Shown here one piece after another: positions 538 through 39,488 of a DNA stretch of 39,493 nucleotides. Source of the stretch: a virus. A program made the translations under genes and the position numbers. The DNA lies in IMG/VR virus record IMGVR_UViG_3300032236_000382, positions 1 through 39,493 of that record. The stretch is one strand, 5' to 3'. How positions within the stretch are numbered: the stretch's first letter is position 1; every line of letters begins with the position of its first letter. The notes below the pieces were generated by a model that was not told the origin of the DNA, did no database searches, and saw only the letters and a list, made by a program, of their open reading frames with translations.

Positions 538-2433
538 CTATCCAAATCTCTCGGACCATTGAGAAGCGAAGGCTTCATCAAGGTTGATTGCTGTTCTTCT
601 TTCCATCTGTGAGCGCGTAGCCCACCTGTTAGACATGTAGGGCGTAACGTTCGTATTCTTTTGAATCAGCTCACGGGCACGGATGACAGTGAACCACAAA
701 GCCATGACGCAGTCAGTGGCTCCCTTGCTGTCCGGTCTCCATGTCAGCAATTGCTGAATAAGAGCCTTCACACCTTCAGAGCCATCACTGGATGGCAACT
801 CTAGGAGATTGTTCTTTTCGTGTCGTCCGTCTCGGGTGGTACCAAATAGGGTAGACATGGAGGAGACTCCAAAGTTTGTATCCCATTTGTTCTTGCCTGT
901 AAATTGAGAATCAAGCCGTACGCCGTATCCAGCAAGCCACTGGCGGAAGTCATTGTCGAGTTCAAAGGCTTTTTGGAAGGCGTTGATTTCGATGCGAACT
1001 TCATTAGGCTTGTACTTGTCTACTAGCTCACGGACCATGTTAATAATCTTTTGGTAGCTGGGCTCTGACATATTGATGCAGTCGAGCACATACATGCGAC
1101 CATCGGCTCGGTTGTAGTTGAGAACTACAAACGCTGCCTTACCTGCGGTTGCTGGGTCAACACCGATGATGGTGTATCCCTCAACGTGGTTAGGATGTCC
1201 TACCGCTCCCGGACGTAGTACTCCGGTTCTTCGAGCCCCGTTTGTACTTCCGGCAACCAAAGCTGGCGGGAAGACGGAGTCTTCTTGAATGTCTTCCTGT
1301 TGATAAACAAGTGCCCACGTACTGGGGGTAACTTCGCTTCGCCGCTTGTAGAGGGCTGGGCCATCCCACTTAGGGTAAAAGCCATCCTCGTCGGGCACAT
1401 CTTCATCGCCGTCCCACGGCGCATCCGACTTAGGCCAGAGCGTCGTCCAGTCAGCTGGCTTATCCGTGTACTCCAACACCGCAGGCATACCCATGTAGGT
1501 AAACGGTGAGCGACCGGCAGACCAGTGCTTGGGGTTTCTAAGTTCTTTATATAAGTCGTTGGCAGCAATTCGCGTCCCTACGATAAGTAGCTTGCCGTTC
1601 TTACCCAGACGGGTAATAACTTCCTTCTGCAGCCAGTTGATTTGCTTTTCCCATTCATGGGCGTTGGCTGTGGTAATGCAGTCGTCAAGAATAATCAGGT
1701 CAGCACGGGCTCCATAAATCTGTCCACCCATACCCAGTGCTTGAAGGGTTGGGTCTTTCTCGCTGGAGTTACGCGCATCGCCCCCTAGATACACTGTGTC
1801 AGTTCGCCAAGTGTCGGCGTCTTTCTCCCAGCCACCCTCTGGAGCGTAGGCGTTCTGGAGTTTGAGCCAGCGCGGGTGCGATAGACGTTGCTTGATTGCG
1901 TACACGAATTCACGTGCCTTCACAAGTGTCTTAGAAACTACGATGATTCTAACGTTTGGGTCAAGGGCGATACGGTACGTGCTGTAGTTCACCGTAATCA
2001 CGGTGGACTTGGCATGCTCCGGTGGTACGTTGACCAACAGGCGGTGTCGCTCTGCGGGCTCGTATATCATATTCGGATGCAGCCAAGAAGGTTCCCGTCC
2101 CTCTAGAAGGTCGACCCAGTCTTGATGATGTGGGAAGACTTGCTGATTTAAAAATATTTTTGAAAATTCAGAAAAGTCGAGCTGGTCTTTAGCTTTGCCG
2201 AGCTCCTCAAGTCCTACGGACTCTCCTCGTTCTTTAGCCTCTGCGAGGGCTGAGGCGAACTCGGAGTCACGCAGCATCCACTGACGGATGGTGTCCGGCT
2301 TCTTGTTCACGGCCGTCATAGCTTGGTGGGTGGTTGCCCCCTTAGACACTAGGTCTAGGACCTTGTCCTTTGCCTCACGTAGTGCCTTGACCTTGAAGTG
2401 GTCATCACCCGTGCCGAATCCTTTTGACGCCAC
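538..2433 (-). CDS. terL: Terminase large subunit with N-terminal HTH (TerS-like) extension
   Basis: 631 aa, GTG start at 2433 with an AAGGGG Shine-Dalgarno sequence. It powers DNA packaging into the prohead and cuts concatemers. The ATPase part shows a Walker A-like VPPEHAKST (residues about 136-144) and Walker B LIILDD (246-251). The nuclease part begins near residue 421 with the RNase H-like IIGVDPAT motif (Asp426 likely metal-binding), followed by a conserved ATDCVMA segment near the C-terminus. Residues about 25-65 (KGATTHQAMTAVNKKPDTIR) look like a helix-turn-helix of the type found in small terminase subunits, which is unusual as part of TerL. No separate terS was recognised, so the fused HTH may do DNA recognition (inference). 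It is the first gene of the leftward late block. Confidence 0.93.
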   Translation of the reverse strand: MASKGFGTGDDHFKVKALREAKDKVLDLVSKGATTHQAMTAVNKKPDTIRQWMLRDSEFASALAEAKERGESVGLEELGKAKDQLDFSEFSKIFLNQQVFPHHQDWVDLLEGREPSWLHPNMIYEPAERHRLLVNVPPEHAKSTVITVNYSTYRIALDPNVRIIVVSKTLVKAREFVYAIKQRLSHPRWLKLQNAYAPEGGWEKDADTWRTDTVYLGGDARNSSEKDPTLQALGMGGQIYGARADLIILDDCITTANAHEWEKQINWLQKEVITRLGKNGKLLIVGTRIAANDLYKELRNPKHWSAGRSPFTYMGMPAVLEYTDKPADWTTLWPKSDAPWDGDEDVPDEDGFYPKWDGPALYKRRSEVTPSTWALVYQQEDIQEDSVFPPALVAGSTNGARRTGVLRPGAVGHPNHVEGYTIIGVDPATAGKAAFVVLNYNRADGRMYVLDCINMSEPSYQKIINMVRELVDKYKPNEVRIEINAFQKAFELDNDFRQWLAGYGVRLDSQFTGKNKWDTNFGVSSMSTLFGTTRDGRHEKNNLLELPSSDGSEGVKALIQQLLTWRPDSKGATDCVMALWFTVIRARELIQKNTNVTPYMSNRWATRSQMERRTAINLDEAFASQWSERFG

Positions 2434-14854: not shown

Positions 14855-15126
14855 GCAAAGAAGATTACTCGGTCTGCCTTGAGCCAGCAGATAAGGCAGA
14901 TGAACTATGGAAGCTAGATGCTAGCTGCCAAGGATTAAACACTGACATGTTCTTTACCGAGGTCGGACAGAACCCCGACCCTGCCCTTATCAGAATGTGT
15001 AAGGCCTGCCCTGTCAAGCAGCAGTGCATAGAGTATGCTTTGAAGTACAGCCTCGAGGGAATATGGGGCGGTATGGGACAGAGAGGCAGAGAAAACTACA
15101 GACGCAGACAGAAAATCACCCACTGA
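14851..15126 (+). CDS. whiB: WhiB-like iron-sulfur transcription factor
   Basis: 91 aa. Four cysteines in the WhiB arrangement: Cys26 (DASCQG), then Cys50, Cys53, Cys59 (CKACPVKQQC), ligating a 4Fe-4S cluster, followed by the GIWGG turn (70-74) and a basic C-terminus (RRRQK) for DNA contact. WhiB proteins are confined to actinobacteria and their phages and work by binding the primary sigma factor region 4 (family knowledge), so this is the best evidence for the host group. Last gene of the early block; a dyad repeat follows 12 bases after its stop. Likely role: reprogramming host transcription or blocking competing phages. Confidence 0.92.
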   Translation: MSKEDYSVCLEPADKADELWKLDASCQGLNTDMFFTEVGQNPDPALIRMCKACPVKQQCIEYALKYSLEGIWGGMGQRGRENYRRRQKITH

Positions 15127-21361: not shown

Positions 21362-21945
21362 TATTTAACTCCGTAAAGGGCGAAGGAGGAATACTGCTGG
21401 AATGAACCGCCTTGCGGATATAAAACCAAAGAAGTAATGGCGTTAGCGTTTCGCCAAGAACCTGATGATAAAAAGATATAACCTGCTCCGTTTGTATCTT
21501 TACCAACTAAAGAACGAGCAGTTTTATATTTGTAAATATTGGCGTAATCAAGAATATCAGTTACAAACACGCCATATGTATTTGCGGTTTCAGAACTCAT
21601 TGGAATAACACCGTAAGCAATCATAATATTTGTAGTTAATTCGTTACCCGAGGTTGCTGATGAACCATCGCCAACAATGTAGTGTTCCGAATAATTGCTG
21701 GCAGTATCTCCGTTAAATTGCATACGAAGGTTTTGCTCTGCGCCCGGGCCTGATGTTGTTGTATTTCTAGCAATGCCGCGAATCTGCAAATGCGTATATC
21801 CCGTAGGAATACCAGCAAAAGTTACAGAGGCTAATCCACCGCTAGGTACAATAACAGTGCCAAGGGCATCATATGCCCCAACGATAGGTGCAGATAAATG
21901 CCCAGACTTACCCGAGGCAAATACTCCAGTAAGTAAAGGACTCAT
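21361..21945 (-). CDS. Tail-tip paralogue with extra N-terminal extension
   Basis: 194 aa; TAATG-coupled on both sides. Residues about 1-35 (SPLLTGVFASGKSGHLSAPIVGAYD) are unique; then VTFAGIPTGYTHLQIRGIAR, NLRMQFNGDTASNYSEHYIVGDGSSA, SWRNANAITSLVLYPQ and FALYGVK follow the same pattern as its two neighbours. The extension could anchor the trimer to the tail. Third member of the tandem family. Confidence 0.75.
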   Translation of the reverse strand: MSPLLTGVFASGKSGHLSAPIVGAYDALGTVIVPSGGLASVTFAGIPTGYTHLQIRGIARNTTTSGPGAEQNLRMQFNGDTASNYSEHYIVGDGSSATSGNELTTNIMIAYGVIPMSSETANTYGVFVTDILDYANIYKYKTARSLVGKDTNGAGYIFLSSGSWRNANAITSLVLYPQGGSFQQYSSFALYGVK

Positions 21946-22403
21946 TAAACAATGTCCCCCACGATGGTGAACGTGTTGCTCGCAGTGCAGATTACTTGTG
22001 CTCCTGCATTGATAACACGAATCTTAGGAGAAGATGTGGTAGCACCTGTAGATGTAATAGTTACTCCTGAGCCTTGGGTAAAGGTAACCTGACCAGCACC
22101 TGTCTGGAGAACAGTAATGATGTCACCAGCAGAGAAAACTGATGGTGGCACGGTTACGGTTACAGCAGAAGCACCAGTAGATGTGACTACGTTATCAGCA
22201 TCTGTCAGTGCTAGGGTGTAGGCAGTACCTGAAGTGGTCGCAAGTGTCGGACGTTGCTTGCCCATAGGTACTCCACCAGCGGTGGCTCCATCATGAACGA
22301 CGACAACATTCTTGGTGGTGTCAACTGTAAGTTCTCCAGCCAACCCTGTAAATGAAGTATGTGCAGCAGTTGTACCTCTGCGGCGTTGGTAAGCGAAACT
22401 CAT
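21945..22403 (-). CDS. Mtd-N-like fibre-associated protein
   Basis: 152 aa from the ATG at 22403, in an ATGA overlap with the preceding stop; the longer TTG start (22418) is less likely. Residues about 6-45 (RRRGTTAAHTSFTGLAGELTVDTTKNVVVVHDG) match the N-terminal domain of major tropism determinant-type proteins, which form trimeric bases of receptor-binding proteins. The rest is beta-rich (VTVTVPPSVFSAGDIITVLQ, GSGVTITST). No reverse transcriptase or variable repeat is present, so no diversity-generating element is claimed. Part of the tail fibre group. Confidence 0.75.
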   Translation of the reverse strand: MSFAYQRRRGTTAAHTSFTGLAGELTVDTTKNVVVVHDGATAGGVPMGKQRPTLATTSGTAYTLALTDADNVVTSTGASAVTVTVPPSVFSAGDIITVLQTGAGQVTFTQGSGVTITSTGATTSSPKIRVINAGAQVICTASNTFTIVGDIV

Positions 22404-23821
22404 GGTACGGTTCCCCAATCAGTTGAGATAGATGTTGTAGATGTCCACGAAGCAGTGGTTCCGTTCGTGGTTAGGTACTTGCCACTGTTACCCGTCTGAG
22501 ACGGGATAAAGCTGGCTGCAGTCGTGGCACTGGCAGCAGCAGAAGTTGCGGATGTAGCAGCGGAAGCGGCTGAGGTAGCCGCTGCAGTAGCAGAAGCAGC
22601 AGCTGCGGTTGCAGATGCAGCAGCACTTGTTGCACTGGTTGCTGCAGCAGTCTGGCTTGTTAGCGCAGATGAAGCCGAAGTAGAAGCTGAGGCTGCTGAT
22701 GTAGCAGCTGCTGCCTGTACCGTAGCAATGTTAATGTAGGTAGAGGTTGTGGTATCAGGGTCAGTGATAGCACCCATATCACGAACCAAGCCTGAGCCAG
22801 TCTGTCCGGTGATAGCCGTGAAAGAAGCGGCAGCAGAAGTAGCACTTGTGGCAGCGGATGTAGCACTTGTTGCGGCTGAAGCAGCACTGGTAGCAGCATT
22901 GTTTGCTGCTGTAGTGATGGTAGCCACAGAAGCAGCAGCCGTAGTAGCCGAAGCCGCTGCTGAGGTAGCAGAGGTGGCTGCACTGGCAGCTGAGGTAGAT
23001 GCTGAGTTGGCTGAGGTTAGGGCGTTAGCGGCCTGTGTAGTGGCCGTAGAGGCACTGTTAGAGGCTGTCGTAGCAGATGCAGCAGCAGATGTGGCTGAGG
23101 TTGCAGCGGCGCTCGCAGAGGCTGCAGCGGCCGAAGTGGCAGCGGCCGAACTAGCGGCTGATGTGGCAGCAGAGCTGGCTGATGTAGCGGCTGAAGATGC
23201 TGATGTGCCTGCAGCAGTAGCTGAAGCAGCAGCTGAAGTAGCTGAGGTAGCAGCAGCAGTAGCCGAAACAGATGCGCTGGTAGCAGATGTTGCAGCAGCA
23301 GCAGCGTTGGCTGCACCTGTGGAGATGTTGCCATCTACATAGTACTTAGTGGCTGCGTCCTGTGCGTTGGTAGGGTTAGCCATGCCTGTGATGGCAAAGC
23401 CACCAGCAGCCAGAGCTGAACCTAAAGTTTTGTTCGAGATAGTCTGAGCATCGGTATCACCAATGACGTTACCTGTTAGCCCATGCACACCAGCACTAGC
23501 ATTGATGTGGAGGTTGGCTTCACGGAAGTCACGACCGATAGCCATGTGGCGGATGACCGCACCGGCTGAGTGGTCTACTGCAGATGAACCATCAGAGCCA
23601 CGGGTGACTGTGATAGTGGTGGAGCTAGACGAGGTGACATCTAAGATTTCTTCAAGTGCTGTATCTGGGTCGATGACCACAGTAAATGTTTGACCAGCGG
23701 ATAGTGTGATGCCGGGCATCAAGGTAGCAGCAGAGGCAACGGGTAGCACCGTTGCTCCTGAAGTTACAGAGCCAGTGAGTGTGGTCTGTTGAGACCGGGA
23801 AGTATACTTACGAGTTGTCAT
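22400..23821 (-). CDS. Tail fibre with long Ala/Ser/Thr repeat
   Basis: 473 aa. Residues 15-92 are a beta module (SGATVLPVASAATLMPGITL ... ITVTRGSDGSSAVDHSAGAVI) also met in the connector; 95-165 holds HGLTGNVIGDTDAQTISNKTL, usual in fibre proteins. From about 169 to 445 comes a low-complexity repeat of Ala/Ser/Thr units (of the SAATSATSAA type), broken once by TGQTGSGLVRDMGAITDPDT (about 325-360). Such repeats form long coiled or beta-helical shafts in side-tail fibres. The end (GKYLTTNGTTASWTS) is a small globular cap. The Mtd-N-like protein and the tail-tip family are translated after it. Confidence 0.82.
   Translation of the reverse strand: MTTRKYTSRSQQTTLTGSVTSGATVLPVASAATLMPGITLSAGQTFTVVIDPDTALEEILDVTSSSSTTITVTRGSDGSSAVDHSAGAVIRHMAIGRDFREANLHINASAGVHGLTGNVIGDTDAQTISNKTLGSALAAGGFAITGMANPTNAQDAATKYYVDGNISTGAANAAAAATSATSASVSATAAATSATSAAASATAAGTSASSAATSASSAATSAASSAAATSAAAASASAAATSATSAAASATTASNSASTATTQAANALTSANSASTSAASAATSATSAAASATTAAASVATITTAANNAATSAASAATSATSAATSATSAAASFTAITGQTGSGLVRDMGAITDPDTTTSTYINIATVQAAAATSAASASTSASSALTSQTAAATSATSAAASATAAAASATAAATSAASAATSATSAAASATTAASFIPSQTGNSGKYLTTNGTTASWTSTTSISTDWGTVP
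22474..23317 (-). repeat. Ala/Ser/Thr-coding low-complexity region in the tail fibre gene
   Basis: A stretch of about 840 bp whose codons are almost only for Ala, Ser and Thr, in imperfect 7- to 8-codon units with GCA/GCT/AGT/ACT mixing. The opposite strand also stays open with a shadow frame rich in Ala and Val. Copy-number changes here would alter the fibre length. Confidence 0.75.
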
Positions 23822-26956: not shown

Positions 26957-28126
26957 TTATTGAAAGTCGATTGAAGATGTAGACTCAATGCGATAGAGAG
27001 CCTCATCACGGTAGATTGACCAGCCTGCAACGCCGTACCAACCCAATGGGCGGTGACGCATGAGCTTGTCAACTACTGGTCCAATAACAACGTGGAACTC
27101 TTCAGCCACTGCTTCAGCAAGTGCCTGTTGTCCAGCGAAGTAGGTGTTGAACACCTTGACTACTGGGGTAACTGTTACTGCAACACCAGAGGTGATAGCA
27201 GCAGCAAGAGGTGTTGTCAAAGTTGCAACTGAACCGGAGATTGCAGTGATGACGTTTCCGGTAGCAGCACCTGTGATAGCGACAGAGTCACCAGCAGCAA
27301 TACCAGAGGTAGATGCAAGAGTAATTGTGGTATCTCCTGAAGCCTGTGATGTTGTTGTGGTTGTGCTTACTGTTGAGAGTGAAGCACCTGACTTGTTAGC
27401 AAACATACGAGGAGACTCGACGTAGAAAGCACCTTCATAGGTACCGATTTCTCCCGCCCAAATCTCATCATTTGCTTGGTATTCGTGTGGCTGGCGCCAT
27501 GAACCCACGCCTGTTTCGGCGCGGAGGTCGTGTGCAACTTCTGGGTGGATACCTGCCCAGTAAAGGTTACCCTTACGTGGGATAGCCTTGTTTGAGCGTA
27601 GCTTTGCAACAGCCTTACGAGCTGCAGCAGAGTTGAATGTATCTGAAGAAGTAACAGTTGCAGAAGAAGTACGTGCGTTTGGACGCAATACGTTTGCACC
27701 TGTAGCAAGAACGTTCTGTGCAAGAATATCGACAGAGTCTGCCATATTGTATGCAATAATGTTAGCAACGGCTGGGTCTACGTCTGCGAGAGAGAAGAGT
27801 TCCAATGCGCGTGTAACTAGAACGGCGTTACCGTACTCTTGAAGAGTAATGGTTGTGTAGGTTGGGGTAGCCAGTGCTACTGCATCTGGGTCGACTGTCT
27901 CAGTAAGAGAAGATGTCTTCTGAGTTAGGTCAACATAGCGTTGCAATACAACTGAGGAACCCGGGATGCTCTGACGAGCAGGGGTCTTGTCTGCGACTGC
28001 GCGGACAAGTGGCTGTGCACGGAGCGCGAACTCGATGAGGCGGTCATAAGCCTTTTGTACGAGACCTGCTGCACCTACTGTACCTCCGAGAGAGGTAGAG
28101 CCAGTGTTTGTATATGCGTTTGCCAT
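26957..28126 (-). CDS. Major capsid protein, N4-gp56-like, with inserted beta module
   Basis: 389 aa, ATG at 28126 with AAGGAGG. The opening (VQKAYDRLIEFALRAQPLVRAVADK), SVVLQRYVDLTQKTSSLTETVDPDA, TITLQEYGNAVLVTRALEL and the end (DKLMRHRPLGWYGVAGWSIYRDEALYRIE) follow the N4-gp56 family of HK97-fold capsid proteins. Residues about 255-321 (SGDTTITLASTSGIAAGDSV ... SGVAVTVTP) are an inserted small beta barrel between PRMFANK and VFNTYFAG, probably exposed on the shell. The upstream gene is the scaffold. Most abundant virion protein expected. A hairpin follows the gene. Confidence 0.88.
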   Translation of the reverse strand: MANAYTNTGSTSLGGTVGAAGLVQKAYDRLIEFALRAQPLVRAVADKTPARQSIPGSSVVLQRYVDLTQKTSSLTETVDPDAVALATPTYTTITLQEYGNAVLVTRALELFSLADVDPAVANIIAYNMADSVDILAQNVLATGANVLRPNARTSSATVTSSDTFNSAAARKAVAKLRSNKAIPRKGNLYWAGIHPEVAHDLRAETGVGSWRQPHEYQANDEIWAGEIGTYEGAFYVESPRMFANKSGASLSTVSTTTTTSQASGDTTITLASTSGIAAGDSVAITGAATGNVITAISGSVATLTTPLAAAITSGVAVTVTPVVKVFNTYFAGQQALAEAVAEEFHVVIGPVVDKLMRHRPLGWYGVAGWSIYRDEALYRIESTSSIDFQ

Positions 28127-28163: not shown

Positions 28164-28646
28164 TTAAAAGTTGCCCGACTGAATCATTGCGATAATCTCT
28201 TCTGCAGAACCTGCATCATTGATACGCTGAATCGCATCGAGCGATTTGTCCGGTGACAATGCACCTTGGGTGACAAGGTCTTGCTGCCGTAGGGCAGCCC
28301 GGTCAAGTTGTTGCTGAGGGTCTACCTCAACTGGTTTGCTTAACCCGAACAGTTCGCCGTTATCATCGAGCCAGTGCGAGACTGTCTCCTCGTTAACGTC
28401 TTCCAAGTCCTTCATGATTAAGCGGGCAGCCTTTTGGTTGACGCCCTTAGCTTCCAAGACTTCTTTAACGACTCGTTCTTTCTGAGCCTTTGAGAGCGAC
28501 TCAAACTTCTCAGAGATGTCCTTGTTGACTTTTTGCTGCTCACGCAATTGCTTGCGTAGCTGCTTGACCAGATTACTGTTGTCCTCTGGTGCTACTGTTT
28601 CATCGAGGTCATCGAAGTCGTCCTCGTAGTCATTGTTTGTTGCCAT
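28164..28646 (-). CDS. Scaffolding protein
   Basis: 160 aa, directly before the capsid gene. Acidic N-terminus (DYEDDFDDLDETVAPED), then a coiled coil (NLVKQLRKQLREQQKVNKDI, FESLSKAQKERVVKEVLEAK), and a C-terminal helix ending IAMIQSGNF. Composition, size and place are those of phage scaffolds that direct shell assembly and are removed afterwards, maybe by the HslV-like protease (inference). Confidence 0.78.
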   Translation of the reverse strand: MATNNDYEDDFDDLDETVAPEDNSNLVKQLRKQLREQQKVNKDISEKFESLSKAQKERVVKEVLEAKGVNQKAARLIMKDLEDVNEETVSHWLDDNGELFGLSKPVEVDPQQQLDRAALRQQDLVTQGALSPDKSLDAIQRINDAGSAEEIIAMIQSGNF

Positions 28647-28773: not shown

Positions 28774-29976
28774 TTAGAACTTACCTTGGATTGATTTACC
28801 AAGTGAGCCGGTGTATCCAGCTGCTGCGCTTGCTCCAGCAATACCAGAGCGGCCAGCGAACTGTGCCTTCTCAAGTTCTTGTAGCTGTTGCTTAGCACGG
28901 GCTGCACTAGCAGCACCTGTCAAACCAAACTGCTCTGCCTCAGCTGCGGTCTGGTCATAGTTAATACCAGATGCACCGTAGATAGTCGCAAGCTTGCTAG
29001 CGATAGGTAGTTCTTGACCAATTGCTGTATAGCCAGCTTTGGCTTGTGCTTCGGTAACGCCAGCTTGTGCTAGTTGCATAGCATGTGCTTGGCTAATCTC
29101 AGGTGTGGTTGCTCCCGGTGTAAGTTGCTCGGTAGCATAGGTACCAATCTTGGCGGCTGTAGTCTGTTGCTGTAGTTGAGGCAACGTTTCATTTGGAGCC
29201 AAGAAGTAACTGACCAAGTCTCCATTACTTACTGATGGGTAATAAGACTTAAGGGTAGCAAGCACTTGTGGGTCAGCGTTCTGGACTTGGTTAACTGCCA
29301 AGTCAAGACGTGAGTTAAGTTCTGTTGCTGATACATCGTTACCAACCAAGGTAGCAAACTGTGCTTTATTAGCGATACCCTTAGTGCCGTACTGTGTCAT
29401 AAGGTTTGAGTACTGGTCTTCAAGGGCAAGGTATTGAGCCTCGGATAAGGCATTCAGACCATTGGCTACACGGGTAACATTGCCAGCAAAGCGGGCTACG
29501 TATGGAGCATTGTATGCCTGCTTAGTTACAGGGTTAATGCTGGTGTCTGTCTTAAGGCGAAGGGCTGCCTCGTTAGCACCAACGTTCTCTTGCATGAACT
29601 GTTGAATAGTAGACGCTAGGTCTTGTAGTCCATAAGAGTTAAAGGTATCGGTAAGAAGTTGGAAAGCATCTTTTCTATTGGCAGCATCAATGGCAGCTTG
29701 TTGCGCTGCTTGTTGTTCTGCTGCTAATGCAGCTCTGTTGCTTGCTGCTGTTGATGCAGCAGCAGCATCTAATGCTGCTTGCTCTGCTGCAGTAATGCCA
29801 GTACTTGTAGTGTTACCGCCTGTAGTAACAGGCTTATTAACAGTAGTTGTTCCATAGTTAATACTAGCTGCTAATTCAGCAGCAGTTGGTGTATAAGGAA
29901 TAGGCGTTGCTTTAGTGGCTGTATTCTTTTTAACAGCAGAAGTTATTGCTCTATCAGTGTTCTTATTAACGGCCAT
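28774..29976 (-). CDS. Internal virion / ejection protein candidate
   Basis: 400 aa; start shares a base with the upstream stop (TAATG). Residues 1-100 are of low complexity with Thr/Ala/Gln (PTAAELAASINYG, QQAAQQAAIDAAN); then a helical body (FQLLTDTFNSYGLQDLAST and many Ala/Gln helices) and a C-terminal Ala/Gly part (AGASAAAGYTGSLGK). No enzyme motif. The TAATG-linked set of three genes (1779, 462 and 400 aa) after portal resembles internal core proteins of podoviruses, released with DNA. Assignment by context. Confidence 0.6.
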   Translation of the reverse strand: MAVNKNTDRAITSAVKKNTATKATPIPYTPTAAELAASINYGTTTVNKPVTTGGNTTSTGITAAEQAALDAAAASTAASNRAALAAEQQAAQQAAIDAANRKDAFQLLTDTFNSYGLQDLASTIQQFMQENVGANEAALRLKTDTSINPVTKQAYNAPYVARFAGNVTRVANGLNALSEAQYLALEDQYSNLMTQYGTKGIANKAQFATLVGNDVSATELNSRLDLAVNQVQNADPQVLATLKSYYPSVSNGDLVSYFLAPNETLPQLQQQTTAAKIGTYATEQLTPGATTPEISQAHAMQLAQAGVTEAQAKAGYTAIGQELPIASKLATIYGASGINYDQTAAEAEQFGLTGAASAARAKQQLQELEKAQFAGRSGIAGASAAAGYTGSLGKSIQGKF

Positions 29977-31364
29977 TATCCCATGAATCCAAACTGCTTG
30001 AGGATGGTGGTTGCATAATTAGCTGCCTCATCACGGGCATTGTTAGTCTTTGACCAACCTAATGTAGGGTCTGATTTAATGTACTTAATAAAAGAGTTGT
30101 CATCCATCTGACCACCGTTGTCGCCACCGGTCAGATACTTCTGCATGATGGGGTCATTCACCATCAAAGGCGTAGACTTTTCTAGCAGTTTGTTTGCTGT
30201 ATCCATACCCGGCTTTGCGATATCACGCAAAGTAAAGCCAGCATCAAACATAGGAGCATAGGCTTTGTACTTAGGAGTAGCCTTTGCTAATGCGGTAATC
30301 TTTGTGAGCTCACCATCAATCGTTCCACCGGGAAGCAATGAATCAAGAGCACCAGTAAAAGCTTTAGTCTCATCGTATACATTAGATACGCCATAATCTG
30401 CAGCCTGCTGGTTCAGCTTTTGCATAGCAACGCCTACGTTTCCGCCTATCTTTGAGATAGCGGCTGGGTCCTTACCTGCATTAACAAGGCTGTTGTATGC
30501 AGCAGATACAAGGATTGCTGTCTTGTCATCTTGGCTAGGGCCTTCAGTCTGCACACGGCTGGTCTCAGTACCTAGGGCATCACGGGTAACTTTAGCCTTA
30601 ATAGGGTGCTTTAACTCATAAGCATGTAGCTTATTATAGTAGTCCTCGAACTCAGCATAGGTTGCGCCACGACCTGTGGTCTTGCGCATGAAAGCATCAA
30701 TGTCTGTGTAGGCTGAGTCCTTGCTGGTCTCAGATACTGTAGCAGTATTCTTTGTGCCAGCATAGTTAGGGCGACCATAAACAACTGAGGCTACATCTTG
30801 AACACTTTGTCCACCATTAAGTAAGTTAGTACGAGATATGCTACCGATGCTAGCGTCAAGGACCTTATCAAAGGCATCGTCTTCTGTGTTAGAAGCAACA
30901 GAAGCTTGAGCTGTTTTAACATTAACACCAGCAAGTTGGTACAGACCCTGCTCTGCCATAGCGGTCTTGGCCTTAGCCAAGGTGCCATATTGCTTAATAA
31001 GACTTTGCATTGTCTGCAAACGAGTAGCCGTTTGGTCAGTTGAAATGCTGTATCCAGTAGGAGAGTTAGGGTCGGCCAGCATAGCTGCCCAGTGCTCACC
31101 CGTAGCATCTACATAAGCAGTAGTCCAACGCTTAGCAGTAGCATCATATACAGGCACCAAGTCCTTATATGTCAAGCCTGATGCATTAGCAGGGCCAGAA
31201 GGATTGATTTGAACCTTCCCAGCAGGGTTACTTCCTGTGCCACTAGGGGTAGAATTCTGTGGAGCAGGGGGCAAATTAGGTGAAGGATTAGGTGTTAAAG
31301 TCTTACCTGAACTTGCAGACACCGGTGGAATACTGGGTGTTGGTACTGGTGTGTTATCAGCCAT
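29976..31364 (-). CDS. Internal virion / ejection protein candidate
   Basis: 462 aa, TAATG-linked on both sides. Pro/Ser-rich N-terminal 65 residues (SIPPVSASSGKTLTPNPSPN), then a mixed alpha/beta region with Lys/Asp helices (FDKVLDASIGSISRTNLLNGG, DAFMRKTTGRGATYAEFEDYY). Shares the Pro/Thr-rich N-terminal style with the giant protein before it, hinting at common targeting into the prohead. No enzymatic motif recognised. Confidence 0.6.
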   Translation of the reverse strand: MADNTPVPTPSIPPVSASSGKTLTPNPSPNLPPAPQNSTPSGTGSNPAGKVQINPSGPANASGLTYKDLVPVYDATAKRWTTAYVDATGEHWAAMLADPNSPTGYSISTDQTATRLQTMQSLIKQYGTLAKAKTAMAEQGLYQLAGVNVKTAQASVASNTEDDAFDKVLDASIGSISRTNLLNGGQSVQDVASVVYGRPNYAGTKNTATVSETSKDSAYTDIDAFMRKTTGRGATYAEFEDYYNKLHAYELKHPIKAKVTRDALGTETSRVQTEGPSQDDKTAILVSAAYNSLVNAGKDPAAISKIGGNVGVAMQKLNQQAADYGVSNVYDETKAFTGALDSLLPGGTIDGELTKITALAKATPKYKAYAPMFDAGFTLRDIAKPGMDTANKLLEKSTPLMVNDPIMQKYLTGGDNGGQMDDNSFIKYIKSDPTLGWSKTNNARDEAANYATTILKQFGFMG

Positions 31365-34300
31365 TACTTAGTTAACCCCACAGTCACGGTAGTTCTGGAT
31401 AGAGAATTCAATAGTGGCTCGAAGATAGACTTCATAGCCTCTGCAATCTGTGCATCTACTGGTGCAGCTCCTTCATTAGGAGCTCCGCCTAGTGCAGCAA
31501 CTGCATTAAGAATTTGCTGCTTATCATGAGCCTTAGTTGCTGTTGCATTAAGGTACCCATTAGCAGCGGTATTGTTCTTCATAGCCTGTACGCCAGCATT
31601 GACAAGTATCCATGCTGATTGCATCTTCTCACGCTCAAGCTTTGTGATAGGGAAACCGTTGTTTGGATTATTAACGATGTCACCTAATGCGTTGAATAGA
31701 CCCATGTACTTGGTAGATGATGTCTTGGCATCTCCCATTACCTGCACAAGCAGAGGGTTGCTAGCAAGGATTGCTTGTTGTTCTAGCTGTGCACTCTTAA
31801 TCTTGTCAGGTCGGTCTGTGCTTTGAGTCTGTGCTGCTAGGTTCTCACGATATCTAGCGTTATCATAGGCCGCATAATCCTGTGCAGTCAGGACATCTTG
31901 TAGGTAATTCCACAAAGGCTTCTGTTTGATAAGACCTTTAGACTGTAAATAGCTGTAGGTATTAACATCAAACTGTCCGATATGAGGAGCAAAGATAAGG
32001 GAAGCAGCAGCTGTATCTGCATTAACTCTAAGGCCAACCCACTTCTGGTTGTTCATCATCCAGTTATCCATGTCAGATGTATAGGATTGGAGAAGCTTTG
32101 TAGACTTCTCTTCCTTACTAACGCCATAGATAGTACGACCCGGGAAGTCACGGGTAAAGATACCCAGTGCTATCTCGTATGGGTCAGAGATACCTTCATC
32201 ATTACGCAGTACACCCTGAAGAATATCGTTGTATTCTTGGCTAAGATTGCTAAAGCCTACGTCCTTAAGGTACTTAGGAATAGTTCCCTTTTCTACCATA
32301 GTAGGAGACATAGGGGAGATTAGGCCTAGGATAGCGCGTAGTGCCAGTACGTTATTGGCAGTAACCTGAACGTTGTTAAGGTATTCACGTGCTGCTGTGA
32401 CGTACTCATCACCAGACATTTGCTTAATAGACTTAGGGGTTACGTTGCCGTAACCATGTGCTGCATTGTACAAAACAGCCATAGCCATAGCAGAAGCTGT
32501 CTGCTGGTCTGCTTCATCCTTTGGTAGGAAGTCAAGCATACGCTGTAAAGACACAGGCAATAGTTTGCTAGCACTCATGTTAGCTCTACCAAGTAGATAC
32601 TTGTCTAGCTCGCTGGCTATTCCCTTGCTCCAGCCCCAAGGTCCAAGGTTAAATAGACCCTTAAGAGCGACAACAGGTACAGATATGAACGGTCCAGAGA
32701 AAGCTGGCATACCAGCTTCAGGTCCAAGAGATGGGCTTGACTGTAGCAAGTTCATGTTAAAGTCAGCAAACATAGGGGTAGTTAGTTGGCTACCATCACG
32801 TCCGGCAATAAAGTTTAATCCACCATTAAGTGCATGGAAGATGATGTTATCTCCGGGCATTGTAAAGATAGGAGCATTGGTATTGTTGTCTTTATGCAAC
32901 ATTCCCATGTTGTCAATACCCATATGCAACAGGCGCATACGGAATACTGCACGTGGCAAGTAGTCTTTAAAGCGGTAAATACGGCGCTGGAATTGCTCCT
33001 GAGCACGGAAGAATCGACCTGCTGTACGCAGGGTATAGGACAATACAGACTGCTTAGCAGCGTTATCCATGAACTTAATAACCTGTTGAGAAGCGTTCTT
33101 CTCTGCTAAGTTAATGAAGTGTGTCTCTGCTGCATGCCGAGCCACTTCTTTACTCCACCCATTCTCAATGAGGTGGTCGTATAGTTCTCTCTCCAAAGGT
33201 TGATACTTCTTATAGAGGTTAACCTTGGCAATATCAAAGATAGGTTGGTTAGATAGCCAGTTAATCTGGGCATCCATGTAGTGCAGAATCTTGTTCTGTA
33301 CTCCACCTTCGCCCCAGTTTTGTACAATTTTAATAAGGGCAGCAGCCTTGTCATCTGGTGTCTTATCCCAGAATCCCTTTTCTGCCTTAGCCAAATCAGA
33401 CTTGAACTCCTCCATAGGAGGGAAGTGACGGGTAAGTTCAGTAAAGTTATCGTACTGAATCATGTCTAGTGCCTTACGAATGGCACCACCTGTACCATAA
33501 GCAGCGTTCTCTAGGCCTTCAACTGGCTTACCAGCTAGGCTCTTAGCCGTATCTGTAATGGCATTAAACAGCTCATCATTAAACTTAATAGGCGAGCCGT
33601 GGAAGGTAGAGTACATGTCCTCAAGACCGATTTGAATACGGTGGATAGCACTCTGTACTTTAGTCCAGCCCTTCTCTGCAACATCGCGTGATGTTTGCAT
33701 AGAGAAGTTGAGGTACTTATCTAGGGCAGCTTCGCCGTTCTTCCTAATCTGAAGAGTCTTAGAATCTACACCAAACTTTTCAAGGATAGCAGCACGGGCA
33801 TTAGCAAAGTCTGCCGCTGTGCGTAGGGCATTGTGGCGGATAAAGTTCTCACCAAAGTGGAAGCCATCTAAAGTATTGAAACGCTGGAACATAGGAGCCC
33901 ATGCACGGTAATGAGCGTGGGATAGTTCCACTCCGTTAATAGCAGAAGCTAGTTCCTTGGGGTTAACGTACTTCCAGTCACCTGTTGCTACGTAATCCAT
34001 CTCTTTAAGTAGGCGAGCAACGCCTTGGTCAGTGAGAAGCTGTTGTTCTAGCTCTCCACCCTTCATGCCTTGGAACATAGCACTACGTGCCATGACTGAA
34101 TTGGTAGCAGCGGCATAGGAAGCCGTAGGGTGACGCAAGAACTTCTCAAAGATAGCAGCAGTTTCTGGGTCATGCCCAGCTAGCTTGTCAATACGGTTCG
34201 CAATAGCATGGATAATGTCATCATTCTGTGCAACGGTCCAGACTTCTTGTCCATTAACAAGGCCTTTATCCATACGACCTTGAAGGACTTTCATTTCCTT

Positions 34301-36703
34301 GCCACTTATCTGTTGATAAATGCTCTTCTCTGGAATCCAGCTAGCAAGGTCAATGCCAAACTTCTTTTGAATACCGGGAAGCTTGCCAAGAGCCTTACGA
34401 CCCACGCGAGACATGAACGGAATGTTTTCAGTTCTGCCGGTGTAAGCAATAGCCGCCTTGTTAAGGGCGCGGCCTTTCATATATCCAGTAAGGTTTGCTG
34501 CAGGAGCAGTCAAAGCATGCATGATATTCTGCTCGATAGTACCGCGAACACCCATACGTGGTGCAATGGCACCAGTTGCCCATACGTTTGTTATCTTACG
34601 GATAAAACTAGAGCGAGCGAAGCCACCAATAAGATTGTTAATAACATACATTGGGCTTTTCTTAGAAGCAAAGTTAAATCCATAAGGTGCAAGTTCTGCT
34701 CCTTGGAAGTTAAGTCCAGCAATTGCTGGCTTTCCTTGGAAAGAGTGGATTGGTCCGTTGGTTCCAATCTTAAATAGAGCATCATTGCCTTCAATAGGGC
34801 TGTGCTCTAGTGGGTCTGTCTGAATCCAGCCATCTAAATGCTGTGGTGCTACACGCAAATCTTTAGGATTTGCAAAAGCTGTAAGGTCAGCAAACTTTCT
34901 TTCAAGAATTCCGTTACGGATGTTCTCATCTACACCCATCTGGTTCATAATTCGTGCATAAAGACCACGAACAAACACAGTTCTTTCTGTTGGTGTAGCA
35001 AAACGGTACGCTTCTGCAGTTTTATTTGCAGCATAGCGTGGCAATCCTGATAAACGTAGGTATTGCTTAACGGTTTCTACTGACTTTTGAGCGTGACTGT
35101 CTTCAAGACCAATCTCATTAAAGCCCGGATGTGTCTGAGCAAGACGTGCAATACGCTGACGAAGGTTCAAGTGACCCGTCAAGTCATCTAGCACAGGGCT
35201 AGGAACGTAAGTTGGCTTGCCAGTTACTGGGTCAAGTGCACGACCAATGTTAGCAAAGGCATCAAAGACTTTATTGCCGCCACCAAGGGCATCAATTTCT
35301 GCATTAGTAGCTGTGCCGTTAAAGAAATCTCCGACAACTTTTCTAAATCCAGCTGTCATCATGCGTTCACGACGAGCGATAGGGATACCCATACGTAGTG
35401 CAGTAGGTCCGTCTACCTCACCCATGTGTAGTTCTTGTGCACCCTGCATGGTCTTAGCAAAGTTCTTTGCGCCTTCAGCATCAAATACTTTGGCTTCACC
35501 TAAAAGGTCAAGAAGTCCACGGTTGTTAATCTCTGGAGCCTTAAGGCGAATGTTCTCCATTGCGCTCGCAACCCCATCGGCATTACGTGCAATGTTAGCT
35601 TCATGATATTGCTTAACGGCTGGACCAAAAACAGTGTCCCAAGACTGTGCAGCACGGCTGCCCGGCTTAAAAATTTCTTCTGCGTTCTGAGCGCGAAGTG
35701 CTGGCTCAGTAAGCAAAGACTCAGCAAGGTGAGAGCCAAGGGTAGCTGCTTCAGCTCCACGCTCTGCAAGCTTAACACCACGTACACCTAAACCAATACC
35801 ACCCAAGTAAGTCAGTGGGTCATGAGCAATTTCATAGAAAGCATCGATAGCTCCGGTAGACATCTTCCACTTATTGGTTGTGTAGAAGGTGCTGTCTTTA
35901 GGATTGACATGGTCGATAACGCGAATAGCATCACGGCCAACAGATACTTGAGCTCCACGGAACTCATCCATCATGTCGTTAAACTTCTTGCTATTGCTGT
36001 ACATATCAGCAAGAGCATTGTAGATGTCTCCATCTACCTTGCCGTAGCCATCAAGAATTTGTCCGGGCTTCTTGCCTTCAATAAGACTTTGTGCTACATA
36101 AGAAGCAGCATTGCCATACTTTGCTTTAAGGTTCTTAACGGTACCTTCGTCGTAGATACCCTTACCGTTCCATGCCTTTGAGTATGTGCTTAAGTGAAAT
36201 GCACTCTCGCCCTGAGTAAGTTCACGGGCAAACATATAAGGTGCATTAATGAGCTGTTGCTCTGCACCAGCAGCACGGTATAAAGCTACAATAGGTGACT
36301 TAAGAGAATCGAAAAGAAGACCCGCTGTACCCTTAAGGACTTTGGTAATCATGTTATCGGTGTTGGTAAACTCTACCTTGCCGTACATGTCCTTAATCAT
36401 GGACTGAGACTCAGGAGAAAGTTGCTTGTACTTGGTCTTTGCCTCTTGCAAAGGCAAAGTACTGAGAGCCTTGTAGGTCTGTACAGTTCCGTAAATCTGA
36501 TTAACCATGTTTGTCTGCTGGGTATTTAGACCAGAGGACAAAGCTGAGGCATACAAAGATGGAGAGCCAGCAGCAATGTTAGGGTTAAGCTGCGTAGTGT
36601 TTAGCCCAGCAGAAACTGGAGCAATTGGTTGTGCCGCAGGAAAAGCGCCGGGTGCACTAGGCATTGGCGTAGGTGTAGGCGTAGCACTTGGTGTTACAGC
36701 CAT
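31364..36703 (-). CDS. Giant 1779-aa internal virion protein
   Basis: Largest gene, about one seventh of the genome; ATG at 36703 in a TAATG overlap with GAGG before it. N-terminal 45 residues rich in Pro/Thr/Ala (TPTPTPMPSAPGAFPAAQPI). The remainder is mainly long helices with a few hydrophobic segments (LGGIGLGVRGVKLAE, FINLAEKN and FISVPVVALKGLFNLG). I recognise no transglycosylase, polymerase or protease motif. Its size, place after portal and protease, and partners of 462 and 400 aa suit an internal head or DNA-ejection protein; large polyvalent-type proteins of other phages are an alternative. It precedes, not follows, the capsid genes, unlike T7 order. Confidence 0.65.
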   Translation of the reverse strand: MAVTPSATPTPTPMPSAPGAFPAAQPIAPVSAGLNTTQLNPNIAAGSPSLYASALSSGLNTQQTNMVNQIYGTVQTYKALSTLPLQEAKTKYKQLSPESQSMIKDMYGKVEFTNTDNMITKVLKGTAGLLFDSLKSPIVALYRAAGAEQQLINAPYMFARELTQGESAFHLSTYSKAWNGKGIYDEGTVKNLKAKYGNAASYVAQSLIEGKKPGQILDGYGKVDGDIYNALADMYSNSKKFNDMMDEFRGAQVSVGRDAIRVIDHVNPKDSTFYTTNKWKMSTGAIDAFYEIAHDPLTYLGGIGLGVRGVKLAERGAEAATLGSHLAESLLTEPALRAQNAEEIFKPGSRAAQSWDTVFGPAVKQYHEANIARNADGVASAMENIRLKAPEINNRGLLDLLGEAKVFDAEGAKNFAKTMQGAQELHMGEVDGPTALRMGIPIARRERMMTAGFRKVVGDFFNGTATNAEIDALGGGNKVFDAFANIGRALDPVTGKPTYVPSPVLDDLTGHLNLRQRIARLAQTHPGFNEIGLEDSHAQKSVETVKQYLRLSGLPRYAANKTAEAYRFATPTERTVFVRGLYARIMNQMGVDENIRNGILERKFADLTAFANPKDLRVAPQHLDGWIQTDPLEHSPIEGNDALFKIGTNGPIHSFQGKPAIAGLNFQGAELAPYGFNFASKKSPMYVINNLIGGFARSSFIRKITNVWATGAIAPRMGVRGTIEQNIMHALTAPAANLTGYMKGRALNKAAIAYTGRTENIPFMSRVGRKALGKLPGIQKKFGIDLASWIPEKSIYQQISGKEMKVLQGRMDKGLVNGQEVWTVAQNDDIIHAIANRIDKLAGHDPETAAIFEKFLRHPTASYAAATNSVMARSAMFQGMKGGELEQQLLTDQGVARLLKEMDYVATGDWKYVNPKELASAINGVELSHAHYRAWAPMFQRFNTLDGFHFGENFIRHNALRTAADFANARAAILEKFGVDSKTLQIRKNGEAALDKYLNFSMQTSRDVAEKGWTKVQSAIHRIQIGLEDMYSTFHGSPIKFNDELFNAITDTAKSLAGKPVEGLENAAYGTGGAIRKALDMIQYDNFTELTRHFPPMEEFKSDLAKAEKGFWDKTPDDKAAALIKIVQNWGEGGVQNKILHYMDAQINWLSNQPIFDIAKVNLYKKYQPLERELYDHLIENGWSKEVARHAAETHFINLAEKNASQQVIKFMDNAAKQSVLSYTLRTAGRFFRAQEQFQRRIYRFKDYLPRAVFRMRLLHMGIDNMGMLHKDNNTNAPIFTMPGDNIIFHALNGGLNFIAGRDGSQLTTPMFADFNMNLLQSSPSLGPEAGMPAFSGPFISVPVVALKGLFNLGPWGWSKGIASELDKYLLGRANMSASKLLPVSLQRMLDFLPKDEADQQTASAMAMAVLYNAAHGYGNVTPKSIKQMSGDEYVTAAREYLNNVQVTANNVLALRAILGLISPMSPTMVEKGTIPKYLKDVGFSNLSQEYNDILQGVLRNDEGISDPYEIALGIFTRDFPGRTIYGVSKEEKSTKLLQSYTSDMDNWMMNNQKWVGLRVNADTAAASLIFAPHIGQFDVNTYSYLQSKGLIKQKPLWNYLQDVLTAQDYAAYDNARYRENLAAQTQSTDRPDKIKSAQLEQQAILASNPLLVQVMGDAKTSSTKYMGLFNALGDIVNNPNNGFPITKLEREKMQSAWILVNAGVQAMKNNTAANGYLNATATKAHDKQQILNAVAALGGAPNEGAAPVDAQIAEAMKSIFEPLLNSLSRTTVTVGLTK

Positions 36704-37131
36704 TACAAGCCTCTAGCTAATAACGCTTTGTACAAAAGTTCTGAGTCGCCCGTAGGGTCGTTCTGGGCAAGCTGACGAATAACGTGAGATGGCGAAACGG
36801 CCATATTAGGCACTGTAAGAGCCTCTGAGCCGGGTCCGGGGCCAACATCCACACCAGCAGTTACTGGCTCGTTAGGACGCATTGTAGGGGCTGCTAAAGG
36901 TACAACAGGCATAGGAGGTACCTCGGGGGTACCTGCAAGAGGAGCAGCTTGTTGTTGCTGCATATTTCCACCTTGACCATAGCCAAGACCTGCCATGTAC
37001 TTAGGAGCCTGAGTTGGGGTAGGTGGCGTCATGCCATCAACCGCTCCGCCATCAGTACGTTGAGATAATGCACCCGGTCCTGATACAGGAGCTGGATTAC
37101 TTGGCTGACGATATCCGCCTTGCTGTGCCAT
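36703..37131 (-). CDS. Pro/Gly/Gln-rich small protein
   Basis: 142 aa, ATG at 37131 after a perfect AGGAGG. Mostly low complexity: NPAPVSGPGALSQ, QQQQAAPLAG, TPEVPPMPVVPLAAP. The last 35 residues (SPSHVIRQLAQNDPTGDSELLYKALL) look folded and helical. Between the HslV-like hydrolase and the giant protein. Could be a flexible head linker or a substrate of the hydrolase. Function unknown. Confidence 0.68.
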   Translation of the reverse strand: MAQQGGYRQPSNPAPVSGPGALSQRTDGGAVDGMTPPTPTQAPKYMAGLGYGQGGNMQQQQAAPLAGTPEVPPMPVVPLAAPTMRPNEPVTAGVDVGPGPGSEALTVPNMAVSPSHVIRQLAQNDPTGDSELLYKALLARGL

Positions 37132-37139
37132 GTATCCTC

Positions 37140-37670
37140 CTACTTAGATTGAAATGCCGTTGTGTATGGTGGGGCAGTAAAGGCTGTGAGCTTTGCTGCT
37201 ACTTCCATTGCTTCAAAAATTCCTACTCCTACAGTTAATGCGCCTAGCGCATAAGGAGCTCCAGACCCAATGGCATAATGCTTGCTATCGGATTTGGTTA
37301 TTCCCAAGTCTTCATCTAGTTCAAACAACTCTCCGCCTACTGCGACGAGGAATTGGAACCGCTCACTACCTTGTTCATCAAAGTTGTAACCGTTTTCCTT
37401 CAAGCACTTACGCATTGAAGGGATTACCTTGACTACCATGAAGTGATAAAGGTCTTGTCTATCTTTTGCTAGTAGCCGTGGTGGTTCCCAGATGTGCTGG
37501 ATAACATCACAAGGCAAGATTTCTCCTGCACCGGCGATGATAAATGCACCGCGGTGGTTAATCTTTGTCATGCTTGAATGGCTAAAGACCTTACCGCTAT
37601 CGTCTGTAACTTGACTATCCGCGAGAATCCAAGCGCCTTCGTCTTCTTCTACTCCGATAATCGTTGTCAT
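37140..37670 (-). CDS. HslV/proteasome-beta-like Ntn hydrolase, possible maturation protease
   Basis: 176 aa; ATG at 37670, AAAGGG upstream. Met removal would leave TTIIGVEE... with Thr1 as nucleophile, as in HslV (TTIV-type start). ILADSQVTDDSGKV supplies the Asp17 position, MTKINHRGAFIIAGAG the Lys near residue 35, and HYAIGSGAPYALGAL the conserved GSG-PYA element; the C-terminal AAKLTAFTAPPYTTAF also matches HslV/beta subunits. Length is that of a single catalytic subunit. No ATPase partner (HslU or Mpa-like) is encoded, though actinobacterial hosts have a proteasome ATPase. Position between portal and internal proteins, and the lack of another prohead protease, suggest head maturation. 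Strength of the match is high; the role is inferred. Confidence 0.8.
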   Translation of the reverse strand: MTTIIGVEEDEGAWILADSQVTDDSGKVFSHSSMTKINHRGAFIIAGAGEILPCDVIQHIWEPPRLLAKDRQDLYHFMVVKVIPSMRKCLKENGYNFDEQGSERFQFLVAVGGELFELDEDLGITKSDSKHYAIGSGAPYALGALTVGVGIFEAMEVAAKLTAFTAPPYTTAFQSK

Positions 37671-37676
37671 GTCCCT

Positions 37677-39488
37677 TTATCCCACTACGCGACGGTTAAT
37701 TGTCCTTACACTTGCATTGCCTTTACCAGCTACGTTGAGGCTGGAAAGCAAACTTTCTAATTCTGGTCGAGGCGTAATAATTCCTGCGCCTTGCTCTGGG
37801 CGAGTAGCCTCACCTTCAGGCGTACCTTGAGGTGTAGGGCCTCCTACTGGAGCGCCGGGAGCAGAAGGGACGGACGGCTGCTCAACCGATTGTTGCGTTC
37901 CAGCAGGAGGATTCTCTGGTTGGAACACATCGAGCATGATGTCTTCAAGGGCTAGACCCTTTTGACGTTGCTGGATAACGGTAGAGATTTTCTTGATGAT
38001 GTCCGTAGGGTCTTGACCCTGTGAGGCCATCTGCGGAATCGCTTGTGTGTATGCCTGAATAGCACCCATCAGCGATGTGCGTAGGTCTTCGGTCTCAATC
38101 TTCTCTTGTTCCAAGGTCACGTTGACATTGAATGGTAACTCACGCATAGCCAAGTCTTTGGAGATTAACTTACCGCCAAGTGCTTGGAGCATGAAGATTA
38201 GGCCTTGAGCTGGGTTTAGACCAGCAAGCATGCCGTAGCGTACATCTGCGGAGTAGTCTCCCTTGATGTCCTTGCCCGGCTTGTAGGTAATAGCATAGGG
38301 GGAACCAGCATCGACACCACGAATTGTCTTCTCTTCGTCAAAGAGAGCCTCATCTACCTCAAAGCAAAGAGAGATAACATCACGTAGCGCGGTGGTGAAT
38401 ATTGTTTGTGCCGCTTTGATTTGAGAATCAAATGAACCCATCAGGGCTTCGACACCGGCACCAGTAACAATGGATGCCTTCATGTTGCCCGAACGGGCTT
38501 CAGGATAACGAGCTCCTGTACGTAGTTCATCATTGAGCAAAGCCTGCTCATTGAACGCGCCTTGTGGAAGCGTCAGTTCTACACGGCGTACACCAGCAGG
38601 GTTAGCGGTACGAATAACCGCATCTCCACCAAGTTGTAGTTCTTGTACATCGTTAGGCAAAACGATTGGTGACTGAACGGATTTCTCAGCTGCTTCCATA
38701 GCGAGCAGAGCGAATCGGTTACGGAGCAACTGAATGCCCAACACATCGTCGAATTGTCCATGAAGTTCGCCATCAACGCTTGGTCGCTTGGCGATAACTA
38801 CCATCATCTTGCCCATTGGGTTGGCTGCTTGAGACAACACAAAGTGGTTACGAGATGGAAGGAAGAGAACAGACTGGTCCTTATCGTAATAACGAACCAT
38901 TTCAATCATGCCGTTCATGTCTTGCTTGTATCCGGCAGGACCGAGAATCTGCTTCTCGTAATCAGGGAACTGTGCCACCAGTTCTCCTAGCGTCATTGAG
39001 TAACGCTTGACAAAGCAAATGCATCGTCCGTAGCGGTCGAATTCAGGATAAGCCCCTATCGGGTTTTCTAGTCTGATGCGTGGCAGCTTTGCTTCCTCAT
39101 CCAATTCAATAATGAACGGGAGGAATCCATAGGTCAGGTACATATCGGCACCTGAGTACATTGCAACTTCCATATCCGAGTGACGGAAGTAGTTAGCGGC
39201 AATGCGTGTGCGCTTGTCAGCGAACTGACGGGCACGGTCTGACGTTTGATTTACGGCAGAGCAATTGATGGCAGGGAGCGGAGCAATCATCTCGGCAAGG
39301 TCGCGGGCGACGATGTCAATGAAGTTTGCTACTACGTTCTGGTCGATACCATCTGGGAAGAAGTTAGGGTAAACCTGTGAGATTTTACCCTGACGTACCA
39401 TTTGGACATCACCGTTACGCATATCCCGCGAGGTGCTACGGTAGCGCAGCGCCTGAACGCGGTTAATGATTTGCGGCATTGTCAACAT
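37677..39488 (-). CDS. Portal protein
   Basis: 603 aa, ATG at 39488 with AAGGA upstream (visible at 118-128 of the left copy). Typical portal traits: N-terminal helices, a long central wing with SGADMYLTYGFLPFIIELDEE and NPIGAYPEFDRYGR, SAVNQTSDRARQF, the FDSQIKAAQTIFTTALRDVI clip region, and a long helical C-terminal barrel with Gln/Pro-rich tail (PAGTQQSVEQPSVPSAPGAP). Forms the twelve-part ring for DNA entry and tail attachment. It directly follows terminase and the small 129-530 gene through the circle junction, and precedes the HslV-like hydrolase. Start confirmed by the duplicate end. Confidence 0.9.
   Translation of the reverse strand: MLTMPQIINRVQALRYRSTSRDMRNGDVQMVRQGKISQVYPNFFPDGIDQNVVANFIDIVARDLAEMIAPLPAINCSAVNQTSDRARQFADKRTRIAANYFRHSDMEVAMYSGADMYLTYGFLPFIIELDEEAKLPRIRLENPIGAYPEFDRYGRCICFVKRYSMTLGELVAQFPDYEKQILGPAGYKQDMNGMIEMVRYYDKDQSVLFLPSRNHFVLSQAANPMGKMMVVIAKRPSVDGELHGQFDDVLGIQLLRNRFALLAMEAAEKSVQSPIVLPNDVQELQLGGDAVIRTANPAGVRRVELTLPQGAFNEQALLNDELRTGARYPEARSGNMKASIVTGAGVEALMGSFDSQIKAAQTIFTTALRDVISLCFEVDEALFDEEKTIRGVDAGSPYAITYKPGKDIKGDYSADVRYGMLAGLNPAQGLIFMLQALGGKLISKDLAMRELPFNVNVTLEQEKIETEDLRTSLMGAIQAYTQAIPQMASQGQDPTDIIKKISTVIQQRQKGLALEDIMLDVFQPENPPAGTQQSVEQPSVPSAPGAPVGGPTPQGTPEGEATRPEQGAGIITPRPELESLLSSLNVAGKGNASVRTINRRVVG

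Follow-up and report, generated by a model that had tools for sequence, protein, structure and literature searches.

A proteasome/HslV-type threonine hydrolase in a variable late-operon slot behind the portal gene of a WhiB-bearing phage: probably an accessory peptidase rather than a head maturation protease

The window analyzed here, a 39,493-nucleotide IMG/VR virus record of a WhiB-bearing actinophage related to the Streptomyces Beephvirinae, encodes a threonine hydrolase, Ntn176 (Table 1), that is probably an accessory peptidase of ring type, active inside the infected cell, mobile between phages and encoded at a variable position of the late operon. The best supported reading of the sequence comparisons is that Ntn is not needed for building the virion, since relatives with near-identical virions fill the slot with a different small gene. 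The data support the family assignment, the catalytic residues, selection on the gene, its dispensability for near-identical virions and its occurrence in several unrelated gene neighborhoods. The case also corrects a tempting annotation: adjoining the portal gene does not make a protein a maturation protease.

Table 1. Positions of the Ntn176 gene, its catalytic codons, the slot that holds it and other genes of the window
Feature	Position	Strand	Basis
Ntn176, proteasome/HslV/BPH-type N-terminal-threonine hydrolase, 176 aa	37140..37670	-	PHROG profile, PDB profile, alignment
Catalytic Thr1 codon (ORF residue 2)	37665..37667	-	Thr in 82/82 aligned sequences
Asp17-equivalent codon (residue 18)	37617..37619	-	Asp in 82/82
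Lys33-equivalent codon (residue 36, mature Lys35)	37563..37565	-	Lys in 82/82
GSG motif (residues 135-137), Ser129 equivalent	37260..37268	-	Gly 82/82, Ser 81/82, Thr 1/82
Slot of variable content between portal and p142: Ntn in the window; in relatives s79, c9, Ntn+c9 or other small ORFs	37132..37676	-	
Portal, 603 aa, upstream flank of slot	37677..39488	-	phrog_104 E 8.6e-26; 42% identity to the portal of Streptomyces phage WRightOn
p142, small proline-rich protein flanking the slot downstream	36703..37131	-	phrog_8200; profile match to WRightOn gp8 E 1e-14
1779-aa internal virion-type (ejection) protein, IVP	31364..36703	-	size and gene order; corresponds in place to the 1644-aa WRightOn protein
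160-aa scaffold-like protein, upstream of capsid	28164..28646	-	phrog_7813 E 2.3e-28; weak phrog_648 scaffold 1.5e-4
N4-gp56 family major capsid protein	26957..28126	-	TIGR04387 100 bits, cut-off 60
Large terminase, start of same late operon in circular permutation	538..2433	-	phrog_38 E 4.2e-70
WhiB-like regulator, host clue (Actinobacteria)	14908..15093	+	PF02467 E 1.1e-15, above cut-off

Profile searches bear out the proteasome/HslV-type family proposed for this ORF in an earlier, sequence-only reading. Ntn176 matches phrog_1040 ('peptidase HslV family') with E 1.5e-24 over residues 1-170, and among PDB structures a 17-sequence Ntn profile matches BPH (9.7e-9), HslV (5e-7) and proteasome beta subunits. 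At 19.9 bits the protein lies just under the gathering cut-off of 22.4 for Pfam PF00227 (Proteasome), which is matched by 14 of the 17 family members at E <= 0.01 (best 1.2e-5), and it scores far below the equivalog cut-offs for HslV (TIGR03692, 16.0 bits against 157.75) and archaeal proteasome beta (TIGR03634, 18.4 bits against 224). The N-terminus reads MTTIIG, with a Thr at position 2 that becomes Thr1 after removal of the Met, and there is no propeptide beyond this Met. In the sequence alignment, from which all residue equivalences (Thr1, Asp17, Lys33, Gly47, Ser129) were taken, the Thr1-Asp17-Lys33 triad is invariant in all 82 Ntn sequences, the oxyanion-hole Gly47 is kept in 80, and the Ser of the GSG motif, which in Ntn176 forms part of GSGAPYALG (residues 135-143), is kept in 81; the Thr1, Asp17, Lys35-like and GSG-PYA features pointed out earlier are thus all present in Ntn176. 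Comparison of the window gene with its relatives gives dN/dS values of about 0.08-0.13, which mark the ORF as a selected protein and not a chance reading frame; it is under purifying selection.

Judging from these features Ntn176 looks like a group I proteasome homologue. Phage members of this group, PPH and AAH, were described by Fuchs, Alva and Lupas in 2021 (PMC8665760). Like PPH, Ntn176 is phage-encoded, carries the Thr1-Asp17-Lys33 triad without a propeptide or an AAA+ partner and is mobile between contexts; PPH, however, is shorter, at about 140 residues, and has no helix H2, whereas Ntn176 has 176 residues and what appears to be a helix-like stretch at this place. AAH is likewise group I, compact and found in phages, none having been found in an Actinobacteria-specific phage (PMC8665760). 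The best PDB profile match, BPH (5ovu, 5ovs), forms a tetradecameric double ring for which no partner unfoldase is known (PMC5777263) and shares the Thr1 nucleophile, but it is a chromosomal bacterial gene whose sequence similarity to Ntn176 is only remote. HslV and the 20S proteasome beta subunits have the superfamily and the catalytic residues in common with Ntn176, as HslV does the GSG-PYA motif; in contrast to these systems, no HslU/ClpX-type ATPase is encoded in the window. The AAA_2 unfoldase (the HslU partner) is absent from the window record and from 11 compared records, while control genomes were all matched, in agreement with the earlier remark that the phage supplies no ATPase partner.

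Two readings of the protein itself differ from a peptidase acting on its own. Connectase, a ligase of the same superfamily that was reported to lack the first helix pair (PMC8665760), is a precedent for Ntn being some other amidohydrolase or ligase, and, as judged by eye from an alignment, the subfamily of the window does not retain the proteasome's Asp166/Ser169 region. We nevertheless consider such an activity unlikely, given that the triad and the GSG motif are kept as in BPH and HslV and that the first helix pair appears, from the sequence, to be present. The second is a decoy or poison subunit that would co-assemble with, or cap, the host 20S proteasome or HslV and alter its activity. The hosts indicated by WhiB belong to a phylum whose members commonly have proteasomes (PMC8665760), and the phage has no ATPase of its own. 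A fully kept catalytic triad would, however, be needless in a decoy, the similarity to proteasome beta is only remote and the family also occurs in phages of Proteobacteria, all of which makes this a very improbable role.

The Ntn176 gene starts 6 bases after the portal gene and is followed by p142 and the 1779-aa IVP, so its location between portal and internal virion protein had been described correctly. Portal relatives were drawn from IMG/VR; all are metagenome contigs, some of which may be fragments. In some of them the slot is occupied by s79, an acidic ORF of 72-81 aa that is unrelated to Ntn. The first portal-sampled set, drawn with the window portal and with slot content playing no part in the choice, held 32 records with s79, 14 with Ntn, none with both, none with an empty slot and 3 that were unreadable, and two further sets, which overlap in part and like the first contain near-duplicates, held 119 with Ntn (10 of these together with c9), 28 with s79, 3 with c9 alone, again none with both Ntn and s79 and none empty, and 6 unreadable. 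A portal tree with 108 sequences, obtained by a quick search with SH-aLRT as the only branch support, requires at least 7 changes between Ntn and s79, each of them forced by well-supported branches. Searches for Ntn elsewhere in the s79 records and for s79 elsewhere in the Ntn records found none, with positive controls matched. This alternation appears to be new, phage proteasome homologues as such having been known since 2021.

The third occupant, c9, is an acidic-tailed ORF of 79-86 aa that stands after Ntn in the slot or alone (L142:1257-1496, L395), and its matches in annotated phages are confined to ct2KA10 records. No match to s79 was found in annotated phage records. Another phage type (L201-L213) has s79 relatives of 75 aa, and the one in L201 immediately precedes a metallophosphoesterase gene; s79 is therefore not confined to the slot between portal and p142.

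Cultured relatives extend the comparison. The Streptomyces phages WRightOn, FlowerPower and Abafar (Beephvirinae) share the head module of the window, with TerL 46%, portal 42%, p400 33% and N4-gp56 capsid 51% identical and a p142 homologue at E 1e-14, p142 being conserved in Beephvirinae. Unlike the window, they carry two or three unrelated ORFs of 51-78 aa in the slot. Ntn is absent from their whole records, where positive controls match, and no protease is annotated between portal and p142 in the cultured Streptomyces podoviruses that share this head module. Because other small ORFs are found here, the position is best described as a variable small-gene slot in the wider phage group. The sequence-only reading had started from the premise that Ntn176 lies where a phage keeps its protease and had proposed a comparison of gene order in relatives; that comparison shows a position which is variable, with s79, c9 or other small ORFs in place of Ntn, and does not support the premise.

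The strict Ntn-or-s79 pattern in the freshwater lineage may nonetheless reflect functional interchangeability. Ntn, s79 and also c9 would then do the same late-infection job by different means in a slot that must be filled, for example with one destroying and the other blocking the same host factor, or with both assisting a late assembly step. A slot that in this lineage is never empty and never holds Ntn and s79 together, as well as the one-for-one nature of the exchanges on the portal tree (at least 7), would fit such a scheme. It is weakened by c9, which stands with Ntn or alone, by the Beephvirinae ORFs, which are more like the content of a variable small-gene slot, and by the fact that Ntn and s79 are each found alone in other phages; operon spacing may, in addition, simply disfavor an empty slot. 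On balance we regard interchangeability as rather unlikely, and we are just as doubtful of its more specific form, in which one freshwater actinophage would carry its own proteolytic ring and its sister a small binder or inhibitor.

Natural swap pairs bear on the relation of Ntn to the virion. Contigs L055 (Ntn) and L056 (s79) are 97.5% identical in portal, 98.3% in p142, 99.6% in the 1792-aa IVP and 98.8% in the protein that follows it, and the 7.9 kb downstream are 97.5% identical at the DNA level, the exchange of Ntn for s79 ending at the gene borders. L054, whose Ntn is the same as that of L055, has a scaffold-like protein 99.4% and a capsid 97.2% identical to those of L056. The Ntn version is found on four separate contigs and the s79 version on one, and mis-assembly behind the L055/L056 swap is not fully excluded; the slot pattern recurs across the tree. 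Conversely, Ntn is 90% identical between the window and L002, against 31% for the IVPs. Taken together, the swap pair and this contrast indicate that Ntn is not visibly tied to particular virion substrates.

These results bear directly on the role that had been suggested for Ntn176, namely head maturation or scaffold removal. The gene is indeed placed after the portal in a virion operon, its Thr peptidase motif is complete, and the scanned window proteins include no other protease family, Peptidase_S78 also not being found. Neither a second maturation protease in the window phage nor a loss of Thr1 or Asp17 among relatives, two of the observations that the earlier reading had named as speaking against it, turned up. 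A prohead protease would, however, be expected to accompany its head proteins, and Ntn does not: in sister phages with 97-99.6% identity in portal, p142, IVP, scaffold-like protein and capsid, an unrelated 80-aa ORF stands in its place. Since the whole Ntn gene is lost with no change in its supposed substrates, and in view of the repeated slot switches and of the cultured Beephvirinae that do without Ntn, we think a maturation role quite unlikely. A search of a limited literature collection found no relevant paper on HslV-type proteases in capsid maturation.

The distribution of the family outside the slot also argues against maturation. In other actinophages, Ntn relatives up to 71% identical, on the opposite strand, adjoin RecT, exonuclease and methylase genes, others lie directly downstream of an endolysin gene, and the family is found as well in large phages, outside the head genes. 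Of 80 loci with the RecT neighborhood 25 hold Ntn and none s79. The window protein in fact shares 71% identity with copies in RecT context and only 50% with the one in the slot of L022, a phage with a portal 86% identical to that of the window. The Ntn tree requires 13 context changes in all, 10 by parsimony for the portal context; just 2 of these 10 are forced by well-supported branches, so that the number of moves is uncertain. Among phages with phrog_1040 proteins, phAPEC8, the Actinomycetia phage DSL-LC01 and LeeroyJenkins resemble the window in tblastn similarity to Ntn and differ from it in having the gene outside the head module. No annotated head gene adjoins Ntn in D'Alembert, DSL-LC01, phAPEC8 or Vibrio phage 166E36-1, and Microbacterium phage LeeroyJenkins has Ntn in its left arm together with a separate annotated capsid maturation protease.

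How an accessory peptidase of this kind might operate can be sketched from its sequence and its nearest relatives. Removal of the Met would expose Thr1, no propeptide being needed, and the protein, group I and close to BPH/HslV and PPH/AAH, would most likely self-assemble as a double ring. It would work without a dedicated phage ATPase and could trim or degrade host or phage proteins late in infection. Two points count against the accessory reading: dozens of diverged phages keep the gene in the late operon directly after the portal, for which a purely in-cell role gives no reason, and no empty slot was seen in the freshwater lineage. For phage homologues of group I, neither AAA+ partners nor contexts hinting at function had been reported (PMC8665760); in this lineage the fixed operon slot with its natural swap pairs makes the role of Ntn testable through sister phages whose main difference is the slot content.

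The phages very likely infect Actinobacteria, as indicated by a WhiB gene in all 16 records tested; in a search for hosts through prophages or misbinned contigs, Ntn and portal had no match in genome contigs. TerL and p150, at the left end of the window, and the portal, at its right end, are contiguous in L002, so that the record (ends 1 and 39493) looks like a circularly permuted, near-complete genome. An Amidoligase_2 domain protein (5636-7264) adjoins a class-II glutamine amidotransferase (7264-8118) that begins MCMLC and is a second Ntn-fold enzyme. The idea that this pair forms a Pup-like tagging and proteasome system with Ntn was rejected because the amidoligase occurs with s79 as well as with Ntn, and some long Ntn records have none. 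PADLOC gave no match for Ntn, s79, the amidoligase or the amidotransferase. The 1779-aa IVP has no family match. Between the window and L002, identity is 96-99% in TerL, portal, scaffold-like protein and capsid, and p462, like the IVP, falls far lower (33%); ejection-type proteins (31364-36703, 29976-31364) that diverge so much more than their neighbors suggest an exchange of the ejection module. Elsewhere, positions 21945-22418 encode a protein with the N-terminal domain of the major tropism determinant (Mtd_N, 2.2e-13), and a glycosyltransferase-like protein (13599-14348, phrog_34859 E 1.7e-90) overlaps a sigma-like gene.
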